Assembly: GCA_020073085.1 (NCBI GenBank)
Contig: JAIQFV010000005.1
Span: forward strand, 1 to 64,000
Direction: 5' to 3'
DNA: 64,000 bases
Origin: Terriglobia bacterium
GTDB lineage: Bacteria > Acidobacteriota > Terriglobia > JAIQFV01
The notes beneath the pieces were generated by a model that had not been told where the DNA came from, ran no database searches, and worked only from the letters and a program-made list of their open reading frames with translations. Made by a program: the position numbers and the translations under genes. Positions within the stretch are counted from its first letter, which is position 1; each line of letters begins with the position of its first letter. Positions 27,160 to 47,581 of this stretch are shown one piece after another.

Positions 27160-27603
27160 TTATCTTCCCTCCAATTCCATGCCTTTTATGGGTACGTCCC
27201 AATGGGCCTCGAGGATCGCAAACCGCCTTTGCTCCTCCCGGGTATAGGTATCCTGGTCCGGGAACAGCTGCCTTTTCAATGCGTCTTCGTCAAACGGCTC
27301 ATTGGCCATCGCAGCATTCTTGAAAACGATGGTTACGCGGTAATCCCAGCGCCCGTCCTCAGTGGCGTGATAACGCGGTTGGTCCATGGAGACTTTGAGT
27401 AGCCGTCCCATGACCACTTGCTTCATAAGGACCGGGTAGTGGTTCTTCTTGAAGAGCTGAAGAAATTCGTCTGCATATCCCCACTTGGCCTTGTAATAAT
27501 ACTCGACGACGAACGGTCTGTCAGCGCTCGAAGAGGGGGTTTGGGCCAGAGCGACCAGCGCGCTTATCCCCATCAGAAAGACTGTAATCACGACTCGCAC
27601 CAT
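27160..27603 (-). CDS. Secreted hypothetical protein
   Basis: A 147-residue protein with a clear signal peptide (MVRVVITVFLMGISALVALAQ, cut after residue 21). The mature part is a single alpha+beta domain with YYYKAKWGYADEFLQLFKKNHYPVLM, and WDYRVTIVFKN, which gives the impression of a ferredoxin-like dimeric alpha/beta-barrel, but the family is not recognised with certainty. The ATG has GAGGAGGAA at six bases. It is monocistronic and converges on the anti-sigma-like gene. Confidence 0.75.
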   Translation of the reverse strand: MVRVVITVFLMGISALVALAQTPSSSADRPFVVEYYYKAKWGYADEFLQLFKKNHYPVLMKQVVMGRLLKVSMDQPRYHATEDGRWDYRVTIVFKNAAMANEPFDEDALKRQLFPDQDTYTREEQRRFAILEAHWDVPIKGMELEGR

Positions 27604-27988
27604 ATCGATTCCTCCTCACCCTTCAGGCAGAAAATGAAGGTTGTGCCCGAGTTTTTCGGAACAAGATTACCGTGAGAAGGAATTGAGGCCAAGCGGAAAA
27701 ACGAGTGATCGAAATCCTGAGGGAATGCCTTCAACGCGATTGAGGGGTGAGCATTGTCCATCAAACAAGATAAATTCCAACAGACATCGACAGATGCCAA
27801 TGCTTCCAGCATGGCCGGCGCTTTCTTTTCTTCATCGGGGCGTGGATCGCCTTGACAAACCCGTGAAGACGGCGTAGATTCTCGTTTTCCGAACATGGTT
27901 TTCATGTCATTGAACATGCCCACCGCGCCGTTCGTGAATACTCCTGTTGTCGGGGAGCGTGGGTGCAAGTGTATGTGCGCCGTTCACT

Positions 27989-28056
27989 GGAGCGGTTGGG
28001 GAGGTGCGGTAACGTAATAAATCGCAGCCTACTCAAGGAGATTTCAAGGCCGCTCC
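27989..28056 (+). promoter_or_regulatory. Candidate antiterminator pairing upstream of the attenuator
   Basis: GGAGCGG at 27989-27995 is the exact complement of CCGCTCC at 28050-28056, which is the 5' arm of the terminator. Pairing of the two would prevent the terminator from forming. The small hairpin at 28005-28026 lies between. This is the expected layout of a transcription attenuator or riboswitch expression platform; no known ligand class was recognised. Confidence 0.5.
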
Positions 28057-28075
28057 GGATGAGCGGCCTTTTTTT
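28046..28075 (+). terminator. Perfect intrinsic terminator 11 bases before the ATP-grasp start
   Basis: AAGGCCGCTC and GAGCGGCCTT are perfectly complementary around a five-base loop, and seven T residues follow (28069-28075). Because it immediately precedes the start codon of the next gene on the same strand, it is better read as an attenuator than as the end of an upstream transcript; the closest upstream gene points the other way. Confidence 0.85.
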
Positions 28076-28085
28076 ATGGAGAATA

Positions 28086-29048
28086 ATGATGACCAAACTC
28101 AAACGGCCCATTGCCATCTATCACGAACATCCCGATTGGTTTCGACCCCTTTTTGAGGAATTCGACCGCCGGGGAACTCCGTATATCCGGATAGACGCTC
28201 GCCAGCACCAGTTCGACGTTGCTTCGCGGGACGGCGAGTACTCATTGTTTTTCAATCGGATGAGTCCTTCGGCCTACACCCGGGGGAACGGTCACGGGAT
28301 TTTTTACACCCTCAATTTCCTCGCTCACCTCGAACGGTTAGGGGTCAGGGTGGTGAACGGCTACAGGGCCTTTACCGTGGAGACCTCTAAGGCGCAACAA
28401 CTTTCCCTGCTCGAATCGCTGGGTCTTACTTATCCGCGAGCGCGGGTGATCAATCATCCAGCCGAAGCGGCGCAAGCTGCCGAGGGCCTGCGTTTCCCGG
28501 TGGTGGTGAAGCCCAACCTGGGCGGAAGCGGTGCCGGCATTGTCCGTTTTGACCGCTTCGAGGACCTCTCCCGCGCGGCGGTGGAAGGTCGGCTGGCATT
28601 GGGACTCGATCAGACCGCCCTGGTGCAGGAATATATTCCAGCGCGAGGAGGGTTCATTACCCGGGTTGAGGTTCTGGGGGGGAAGTATCTCTATGCCATT
28701 AAGGTTTACTTCACCGGTGACAGTTTCAACCTCTGCCCCGCCGACATCTGCCAGACGACGGAGGGGGTGGAACTCGCGCGCTCCGCGTGTCCGGTGGATG
28801 CCCCCAAGAACAAGATGAAGGTGGAAGCGGTCACGCCGCCGCGGGAGGTGATCGAAGCCGTGGAGCGGATCATGCAAACCGCCGGGATAGAGGTGGGGGG
28901 CGTCGAATATATCGTCGACGACCGCGACGGGAAGCTGCTCTATTACGACATCAACGCCCTGTCAAACTTCGTTGCCGATGGACCGCACGTTGTTGGATTC
29001 AATCCATACGCGCGCCTGGCCGACTTCTTGGAAACGGAGGCCCGCTGA
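28086..29048 (+). CDS. RimK/glutathione-synthetase-like ATP-grasp ligase
   Basis: A 320-residue ATP-grasp enzyme. After a Rossmann-like N-terminus (RPIAIYHEHPDWFRPLFEEFDRRG) come the ATP-grasp central motifs: FPVVVKPNLGGSGAGIVRF (nucleotide-binding lysine and Gly-rich loop, about residues 138-156), LVQEYIPA, and a C-terminal metal site in VEYIVDDRDGKLLYYDINALSNF. It should ligate a carboxylate to an amine or thiol with ATP; the partner substrate is unknown. Two adjacent ATGs (28086 and 28089) follow GGAGAATA. The frame is open further upstream through the terminator, but that stretch is the leader. The stop overlaps the next start (TGATG). Confidence 0.88.
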   Translation: MMTKLKRPIAIYHEHPDWFRPLFEEFDRRGTPYIRIDARQHQFDVASRDGEYSLFFNRMSPSAYTRGNGHGIFYTLNFLAHLERLGVRVVNGYRAFTVETSKAQQLSLLESLGLTYPRARVINHPAEAAQAAEGLRFPVVVKPNLGGSGAGIVRFDRFEDLSRAAVEGRLALGLDQTALVQEYIPARGGFITRVEVLGGKYLYAIKVYFTGDSFNLCPADICQTTEGVELARSACPVDAPKNKMKVEAVTPPREVIEAVERIMQTAGIEVGGVEYIVDDRDGKLLYYDINALSNFVADGPHVVGFNPYARLADFLETEAR

Positions 29049-30130
29049 TGCGTTACGGATATTGGCTTCCAGTGTTTGGCGGTTGGCTGCGGAACGTCGA
29101 GGACGAGGGGATGGAACCGACGTGGGAGTACAACAGCCGGCTGGCGAGGCGCAGCGAGGAGATCGGGTTCGACCTCACCTTGATCGCTGAACTGAATCTG
29201 AATGATATTAAGGGGATTCACGCTCCTGCCCTCGACGCCTGGTCGACGGCGGCCGCGCTGGCCGCGGTGACCCGGAGGCTGGAATTGATGGTCGCGGTCC
29301 GCCCCACTTTCCATCTGCCCGCGCTGCTGGCCAAGCAGGCGGCAAACATCGACCGCATCAGCGGCGGCCGCCTTTCACTCAATGTGGTCTCTTCATGGTG
29401 GGCGGATGAAGCGAGACAGTACGGGGTTCACTTTGAGCAGCATGATGATCGCTATGCGCGAACCGCGGAGTGGCTTCAAGTGTTGAACGGCGTATGGAGC
29501 CGTGACCATTTTTCATTCACGGGCAAATACTATCGGGTCGAGGACACGGTGTTGCAGCCCAAGCCCGTTTCACGCCCACGCCCCACCCTCTATGCGGGCG
29601 GCGAGTCTGAAGCCGCAAAGGAGCTGATCGCCGGGGAGTGCGATGCCTACGTCATGCACGGGGATCCCCCGGAGCGGATCGCACACAAGATCGCCGACCT
29701 TTCGTCGCGCCGCATGCGAATGAATTTGCCTCGTATGAAGTTCGGGGTGGCCGCCTATGCCATCGTGCGGGATACGGAAGAGGAAGCGCGGCAGGAACTG
29801 CGTCGGATCACTGACGTGAAGCAGAGTGCTGCCGGGTATGGGAACTACCAAGAGTGGCTGGCAGGGACCCAACTGGAGCAGAAGGTTTCTTTGGAGGATT
29901 ATTCGGTGTCGAACCGGGGCCTGCGGTCGGGTTTGGTGGGGACGGCCGAGCAAGTCCGGATGAGAATCGCGGAGTTCGAGGCAGCGGGCGTGGATCTGTT
30001 GCTGCTGCAATTCAGCCCGCAACTGGAAGAGATGGAACGCTTCGCCGAGACCGTCATTTCTCGTGGAAGTTCCTTAAGCCATGAGAGGGCGACCCTTGAT
30101 AACACATGGCAGGCAAGCATGGGGAGCTAA
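29048..30130 (+). CDS. LLM-class flavin-dependent monooxygenase
   Basis: A 360-residue bacterial-luciferase-like enzyme. N-terminus MRYGYWLPVFGGWLRNVEDEG, then LELMVAVRPTFHLPALLAKQAANIDRISGGRLSLNVVSSWWADEARQYG, the hallmark of alkanesulfonate and dimethylsulfone monooxygenases (SsuD/SfnG type) that bind FMNH2 supplied by a separate reductase. GGESEAAKELIAGECDAYVMHGD matches the flavin phosphate region. It oxidises a small organosulfur or similar substrate; no flavin reductase or transporter lies nearby. The start overlaps the ATP-grasp stop (TGATG), so the pair is translationally coupled and probably catalyses linked steps. Confidence 0.9.
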   Translation: MRYGYWLPVFGGWLRNVEDEGMEPTWEYNSRLARRSEEIGFDLTLIAELNLNDIKGIHAPALDAWSTAAALAAVTRRLELMVAVRPTFHLPALLAKQAANIDRISGGRLSLNVVSSWWADEARQYGVHFEQHDDRYARTAEWLQVLNGVWSRDHFSFTGKYYRVEDTVLQPKPVSRPRPTLYAGGESEAAKELIAGECDAYVMHGDPPERIAHKIADLSSRRMRMNLPRMKFGVAAYAIVRDTEEEARQELRRITDVKQSAAGYGNYQEWLAGTQLEQKVSLEDYSVSNRGLRSGLVGTAEQVRMRIAEFEAAGVDLLLLQFSPQLEEMERFAETVISRGSSLSHERATLDNTWQASMGS

Positions 30131-47481: not shown

Positions 47482-47581
47482 GGAAGTGGATTGGGTCTGG
47501 TGATCCGCCTGGTCTTCAAAACCAGTGGGACGCTGTCTTACAGCAGGGTTCGGTGGGTTCGATTCCCACACACTTCCGCCA
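47482..47581 (+). tRNA. selC: tRNA-Sec (UCA anticodon)
   Basis: A 100-nt tRNA with the features of bacterial tRNA-Sec: anticodon stem CTGGT/ACCAG with loop CTTCAAA (anticodon TCA), a six-pair D stem around TGGT, a long variable arm, T arm GTGGG-TTCGATT-CCCAC, an extended acceptor (GGAAGTGG with ACACTTCC, the eighth pair being a G-A mismatch) and an encoded CCA. It carries selenocysteine to UGA codons with SelB. It stands alone, with no selA/selB/selD visible in the window, and a text-like repeat begins four bases after it. Confidence 0.95.

Follow-up and report, generated by a model that had tools for sequence, protein, structure and literature searches.

The locus described here raises the question of which signal is read by the RNA leader ahead of a two-gene operon, and what this signal implies about the enzymes encoded behind it. 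The operon lies in a 64,000-nucleotide stretch, hereafter the window, of a Terriglobia bacterium of the Acidobacteriota (contig JAIQFV010000005.1 of assembly GCA_020073085.1, positions 1 to 64,000). It comprises, on the forward strand, an ATP-grasp ligase gene with a RimK/LysX-like fold (28089..29048; alternative ATG at 28086) and a gene for a flavin mononucleotide (FMN)-dependent luciferase-like monooxygenase of the SfnG/SsuD group (29048..30130). An earlier note, made from the sequence alone, had recorded a TGATG overlap of the two genes, confirmed here at 29046-29050, together with a perfect terminator just before the ATP-grasp gene and an upstream segment able to pair with it, and had interpreted the whole as a metabolite-controlled leader. 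Our analysis indicates that the leader is very probably a ribosome-mediated transcription attenuator sensing cysteinyl-tRNA, which would place the operon in a cysteine/sulfur regulon with enzymes that probably release assimilable sulfur. The sequence basis of this reading consists of a short open reading frame (ORF), its Cys codons, a copy of a terminator arm, the terminator itself, the conservation of these parts, and an architecture common to sulfur genes; from these we infer the stalling of the ribosome, the direction of the response, and the role of the enzymes.

In the window, a sigma-70-type promoter found by consensus scan (TTGACA-17-TAGATT, 27852..27880, forward strand) and also present in a sister species (L003) precedes a forward-strand leader-peptide ORF of 37 codons (MSLNMPTAPFVNTPVVGERGCKCMCAVHWSGWGGAVT, 27904..28017), which ends in tandem stops (TAA TAA) and has a predicted 5′ untranslated region of ~17 nt. 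The earlier note had missed this ORF and with it the likely sensor, namely three Cys codons (27964, 27970, and 27976) in a Cys-Lys-Cys-Met-Cys run (27964..27978) right before the antiterminator arm. This arm, GGAGCGG (27989..27995), lies within the ORF and proved to be, as claimed, the exact complement of CCGCTCC at 28050-28056 in the terminator; it starts 10 nt past the last Cys codon and 26 nt ahead of the stop, a geometry seen in most relatives. The small hairpin that had been placed between arm and terminator was also found (GGTGCG...CGCAGCC, 28003..28029, from the ORF end toward the terminator); it is kept in L003 and absent from more distant leaders. The intrinsic terminator (28046..28075) has a stem of 10 perfect pairs, a 5-nt loop, and a T tract, with the letters AAGGCCGCTC-CGGAT-GAGCGGCCTT occupying 28046-28070 and the T tract reaching 28075, just ahead of the ATG at 28086 or 28089. 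Within 14 kb, 11 terminator-like sites were counted, a number showing no excess over the 15.1 expected from shuffles, and this one scores highest among them. A complement of 7 nt within the final 45 nt of the ORF is by itself mildly unusual (shuffle p = 0.033); the arm match is convincing because it is conserved in relatives, a single match being weak.

In the sister species L003, the start codon at 27904 is kept and the ATG at 27895 is not, while 6 of the first 12 codons carry non-synonymous changes and the Cys part is identical. TTGAC[ATC] occurs in the 150 nt preceding the first Cys codon in 17 of 30 leaders, against ~10% expected. The literal pattern GAGCGG...CCGCTC...GAGCGG occurs once in the genome, the other copies of the switch carrying other sequences.

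A conserved leader before the same gene pair, which the earlier note had proposed to look for in other genomes, does exist and consists of a Cys-rich ORF, an arm copy, and a terminator. Close homologues of the ATP-grasp protein occur in Acidobacteriota, Planctomycetota, Bacteroidota, Gemmatimonadota, Armatimonadota, and other groups, and many of the Acidobacteriota and Gemmatimonadota copies have a short upstream ORF in which Cys codons form a run (VCACMCMCSCTCRATSGRGGPSV, SMAMCMCMCCCARERNGGLSFS, ACMCCCCREGRTPSGAIV, MCACFCCCTPSNERTVVYVT, and MMMCCCCMCQSAHGGAGACAS), as in MCMCMCCC, ACMCCCC, and CACFCCC. A terminator follows each of them, and the ORF usually carries a segment complementary to the 5′ arm of that terminator. 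At least four Cys per 10 residues were found at 20 of 95 non-redundant loci, compared with 0.67 expected from dinucleotide shuffles and with 1.6% of 563 control upstream regions, and at least five Cys per 10 residues at 14 of the 95 (0.03 expected). The order of elements is the Cys run, a copy of the terminator 3′ arm, the stop codon, and the terminator, where the arm copy typically begins 5-12 nt past the last Cys codon and 24-28 nt ahead of the stop, and the terminator begins 19-39 nt beyond it. Leader peptides from different genomes resemble each other neither in length nor at the N-terminus, and between the Cys run and the terminator the arm copy is the sole conserved part.

The pairing itself is retained where the terminator sequence is not, which bears out the earlier claim of mutually exclusive terminator and antiterminator structures. 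Before the gene pair, the Acidobacteriota share a conserved terminator (GGCCGCTC...GAGCGGCC), whereas the Gemmatimonadota have CCTCCGATCC... or CCCCCTCTCCC..., and in one of the latter (L066) the ORF carries the exact 8-nt partner GGGAGAGG of its own terminator. In 32 leaders, the longest stretch perfectly complementary to the own terminator has a mean length of 6.31 nt, compared with 4.55 nt after shuffling of the ORF ends (highest mean of any replicate, 5.03 nt), and complements of at least 6 nt occur in 76% of pairings with the own terminator and in 25% with the terminators of other families. The arm thus tracks changes in the terminator. A covariance model was trained on 11 leaders and applied to 299 class genomes; it placed 14 of its 15 best matches ahead of an ATP-grasp homologue, and it recovered 11 leaders beyond the training set, each in that position.

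Two further features of these ORFs may be recorded. Met makes up 13% of residues inside the Cys runs, compared with ~2% in ordinary proteins, and Met codons interleaved with Cys (MCMCMC, MMMCCCCMC, MAMCC) are seen in L004, L006, L007, L010, L070, L071, and L146 and in the leaders of NirA-type reductase genes; this is no more than a suggestion that methionine supply is sensed jointly with cysteine. In the Hymenobacteraceae, five gene pairs (L013, L028, L030, L032, and L037) have short ORFs ~270 nt upstream that end in 3-7 Cys codons directly before the stop and lack a clear terminator, possibly another form of Cys leader control.

The same Cys-leader layout, with unrelated terminators, stands before recognized sulfur genes, which were named from their sequences and from a PF01507 (PAPS-reductase/CysD-family) search of relatives: TSUP transporter-cysD-cysN (L113), TSUP-cysH (L118 and L135), cysH (L129), and cysDN (L140); a TSUP gene (L154) came in addition from the covariance model search. 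In a class-wide search, 17 of 28 loci of NirA-type (sulfite/nitrite) reductases had a Cys ORF and a terminator, with MAMCCCCGVAVPTCGG and MKNCCQMMCCPCACSAMCHMTPISGQRNFRT as examples of the leaders. The genome of the window (G000) has such a locus of its own (G000:C2:188700-192500, L183), in which a second Cys ORF (MHPLFQRCSCPATPCCWGHEAMAMCCWSPLQRADAVGHCGGER) with the arm copy CTTCAAAGGGC and the terminator GCCCTTCGAAG...CTTCGAAGGGC precedes a NirA-type reductase gene, and the operon continues with siroheme genes (the N-terminal part of cysG and cobA/the C-terminal part of cysG). A sister genus retains the Cys ORF and terminator before its NirA-type reductase operon. In a genome of another family (G003, L270), MYTPLCCGAGCCSCS followed by a stop lies upstream of a NirA-type reductase gene and is followed by the inverted repeat CCTCCGGG...CCCGGAGG. 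A blind scan for a Cys ORF with arm copy and terminator, covering 1.69 Mb (29%) of the window genome, found 525 short ORFs with at least three Cys in 10 residues, three of which had both other elements: the ATP-grasp operon, the NirA-type reductase operon, and one doubtful site. The last (G000:C1:394434, reverse strand) is a 27-residue ORF ending CTGCC with a weak GC-rich hairpin and is probably a chance match.

A switch of this kind would operate as follows. RNA polymerase would initiate near 27887, and a ribosome would translate the 37-codon ORF. With ample charged tRNA-Cys, the ribosome would pass CKCMC and cover GGAGCGG, so that the terminator at 28046-28075 could form and the operon would be off; with scarce cysteine, it would stall at the Cys codons, leaving GGAGCGG free to pair with the 5′ arm of the terminator, and read-through transcription would enter the ATP-grasp and monooxygenase genes. 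When the leader was folded without the terminator 3′ arm, the mean probability of the antiterminator was 0.69 with a ribosome on the first Cys codon and 0.51 with a ribosome at the stop, a snapshot that fits the model partly by construction, since a ribosome sitting on the arm masks it by definition.

Several observations weigh against cysteine-dependent attenuation. When the full-length RNA was folded at equilibrium with the ribosome footprint masked, the terminator usually won at any ribosome position, and the window RNA without a ribosome favoured the antiterminator; thermodynamics alone therefore does not prove the direction of switching, which we derive from biology and from the position of the codons. 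The window copy has three Cys codons, fewer than most relatives, and no Shine-Dalgarno sequence is visible before the ATG at 27904. Some leaders, including L070, L071, and L077 from the Gemmatimonadota, have an arm complement of 5 nt, which singly is no better than chance. Finally, no Cys leader was detectable at many of the gene pairs (in Planctomycetota, most Bacteroidota, and part of the Acidobacteriota); the link between switch and enzymes is therefore not universal.

Four other explanations were weighed against cysteine-sensing attenuation. In the first, the Cys leader would control translation or Rho-dependent termination in the style of the mycobacterial poly-Cys ORFs, with the hairpin being secondary. 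Mycobacterial cys leaders do lack terminators (PMC1262725), as do, as far as could be seen, the Hymenobacteraceae copies ending in poly-Cys; however, nearly every leader from the Acidobacteriota has an intrinsic terminator with a U tract, the 5′ arm of which is matched within the ORF, and this mode is highly improbable here. The second is the metabolite-binding riboswitch implied by the earlier note, with an aptamer in 27890-28045 switching the terminator. The terminator and the alternative pairing are genuine, a small hairpin lies between them, and the leader folds better than its shuffles (z = -2.3). Against an aptamer, the Rfam covariance search gave no family in the leader, in agreement with the earlier statement that no known riboswitch class fits, and no aptamer-like conserved core was found among the leaders, where the small hairpin is limited to the sister species and the arm copy alone is conserved from the Cys run to the terminator. 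Moreover, the Cys-codon run reappears before other sulfur genes in unrelated RNA sequence. Thus, the idea of a metabolite-controlled leader is supported as regards transcription attenuation and not supported as regards a ligand-binding RNA, which we give very little chance. The sole Rfam match in the window is a selenocysteine tRNA gene (tRNA-Sec, RF01852, 71.9 bits) at 47482-47577.

The third explanation takes the 37-residue ORF as the precursor of a ribosomally synthesized and post-translationally modified peptide (RiPP), with the ATP-grasp enzyme and the flavoenzyme as its maturases. It would account for a small ORF with a Cys-rich tail immediately ahead of the pair and for an ATP-grasp fold near PsnB and LysX, which act on peptides or carrier proteins. 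However, Cys ORFs of a similar kind also stand before cysDN, cysH, and NirA-type reductase genes, where there is no maturase, and most pairs outside the Acidobacteriota and Gemmatimonadota have no such ORF. A conserved N-terminal recognition region is also not seen, as leader lengths and N-termini differ between genomes and half of the first 12 codons have changed in L003 around a constant Cys part. A RiPP precursor is accordingly about as improbable as an aptamer. The fourth dispenses with regulation, taking the hairpin as the constitutive end of a small transcript and the upstream complement as fortuitous. It could appeal to the modest single p value and to terminator-like sites at chance level, but its probability is vanishingly small given the conservation in tens of genomes over differing terminator sequences.

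With cysteine-sensing attenuation as the preferred reading, the enzymes can be considered. The AlphaFold model of the ATP-grasp protein (predicted local distance difference test score, 89) is closest in the PDB to LysX/ArgX (template modelling score to target, 0.83-0.86), and the protein passes the PF08443 cut-off and falls below that of the RimK family TIGR00768 (61.3 vs 143.4 bits). Over 34 homologues, the glycine loop, E273, D287, N289, C216, and C221 are invariant, and a CPADIC motif is invariant or nearly so. It shares the fold and the ATP-grasp catalytic pattern with the LysX/ArgX/RimK ligases but differs from them in its ~20% identity, its CPADIC motif, and its monooxygenase partner. 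A GTG-started ORF (27963-29048), which would extend the ATP-grasp gene in frame across the terminator, was rejected as spurious, as homologous proteins begin at 28086/28089.

The monooxygenase matches PDB entries 3rao (E 1e-132), 8vw6 (6e-103), and 8t0u (SfnG, 6e-56). It belongs, like SfnG and SsuD, its nearest characterized relatives, to the luciferase-like two-component FMN monooxygenases, but scores below both NCBIfam cut-offs (SfnG TIGR04021, 260.7 vs 382.95 bits; SsuD TIGR03565, 190.8 vs 518.2 bits). At the positions aligned with the SsuD active-site residues W196, R226, and H228, it has H, A, and Y. In neighbourhood clustering, the monooxygenase gene was nearby in 69 loci, compared with 77 for the ATP-grasp gene, and no other conserved adjoining gene was found; the genomic context thus yields no extra pathway partner. 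A small secreted-type protein encoded upstream in the window (27160-27603, reverse strand; no Pfam match) has relatives that are encoded close to this gene pair in two Chitinophagaceae (L060 and L072) and in L003.

Because the Cys-leader architecture is shared with sulfur genes, the ATP-grasp/SfnG-like pair would belong to the cysteine-supply regulon. The earlier note had left the pathway unassigned; its setting can now be narrowed to sulfur/cysteine supply. The enzymes probably release sulfite or a related assimilable species from an organosulfur compound. The window genome (98.7% complete) has no match to PF01507 (PAPS reductase/CysD) or PF01747 (ATP sulfurylase), a genome of the same genus has none to PF01507, and the window genome encodes the NirA-type reductase and several cysK homologues. 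Since no sulfate-activation or APS/PAPS-reductase gene was found there, the monooxygenase may be a source of sulfite; if the flavoenzyme does free sulfite from an organosulfur compound, the gap would be closed and the control shared with the reductase explained. The gene pair is also present in genomes possessing the sulfate pathway and so is not merely a replacement, and by hand count PF01507 is lacking in 5 of 16 strong carriers vs 23 of 101 genomes, with no clear link to the pair. As for the ligase, our guess, by analogy, is that it masks an amine or acid ahead of oxidation, a purpose served by N-acetylation in other organosulfur pathways.

The class of mechanism is already known; what appears to be new is its occurrence in this phylum, over this regulon, and ahead of this gene pair. 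As in the trp, his, leu, and ilv attenuators, a short ORF with end-product codons, an alternative pairing, and an intrinsic terminator lie ahead of the operon; here the clustered codons are for cysteine, the antiterminator arm is part of the ORF, falling between its Cys codons and its stop, and the pairing is kept over sequence change, and the organisms are Acidobacteriota and Gemmatimonadota. At the cysDN, cysH, and NirA-type reductase/siroheme loci, the Cys leaders stand, as in that class, before supply genes; the ATP-grasp/monooxygenase operon may be a further such case. A close precedent is the uORFC-8-2 motif of Rhodobacterales cysS, with tandem Cys codons in an upstream ORF and an intrinsic terminator, for which Cys-tRNA attenuation was proposed (PMC8632094). 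That motif has two Cys codons at positions 14-15 and is confined to cysS in Rhodobacterales, whereas the leaders described here have longer Cys(+Met) runs and precede assimilatory sulfur genes and the ATP-grasp/monooxygenase pair; the window leader, with another gene, organism, and layout, lies outside it. Cys leader peptides without terminators have been predicted in Actinobacteria (PMC1262725), and, according to a citing passage in PMC13236596, leaderless mycobacterial poly-Cys ORFs before cysteine-biosynthesis operons act through translation attenuation. The mycobacterial elements share a Cys-run ORF with the window leader but, being leaderless, have no counterpart of its predicted 5′ untranslated region, and they also lack its intrinsic terminator. 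In 2010, Acidobacteria attenuators were described as having hardly any assigned function (PMC2965389). No description of a cysteine regulon of this kind in Acidobacteriota was found in the literature searched; an earlier mention of Cys leaders in this phylum is possible, for example in the Lopatovskaya 2010 comparative attenuation survey (cited in PMC4833913).

A whole set of attenuators would receive a function here, namely cysteine sensing via ribosome stalling before sulfur genes. Since the element is recognizable without a conserved RNA sequence, it could also help to delineate the cysteine regulon of soil bacteria that have not been cultured. A widespread uncharacterized gene pair would gain a physiological setting and, with it, a short list of testable organosulfur substrates. 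Tentatively, and at somewhat less than an even chance, we propose that the assimilatory sulfur regulon of the Acidobacteriota and part of the Gemmatimonadota is largely under cysteine(+methionine)-codon attenuation, and that the gene pair, present in at least five phyla, represents an undescribed sulfur-scavenging pathway in which the ligase would join or mask a sulfur compound and the flavoenzyme would cleave its C-S bond, feeding the reductase and CysK, maybe as a main route of cysteine sulfur in this genus.

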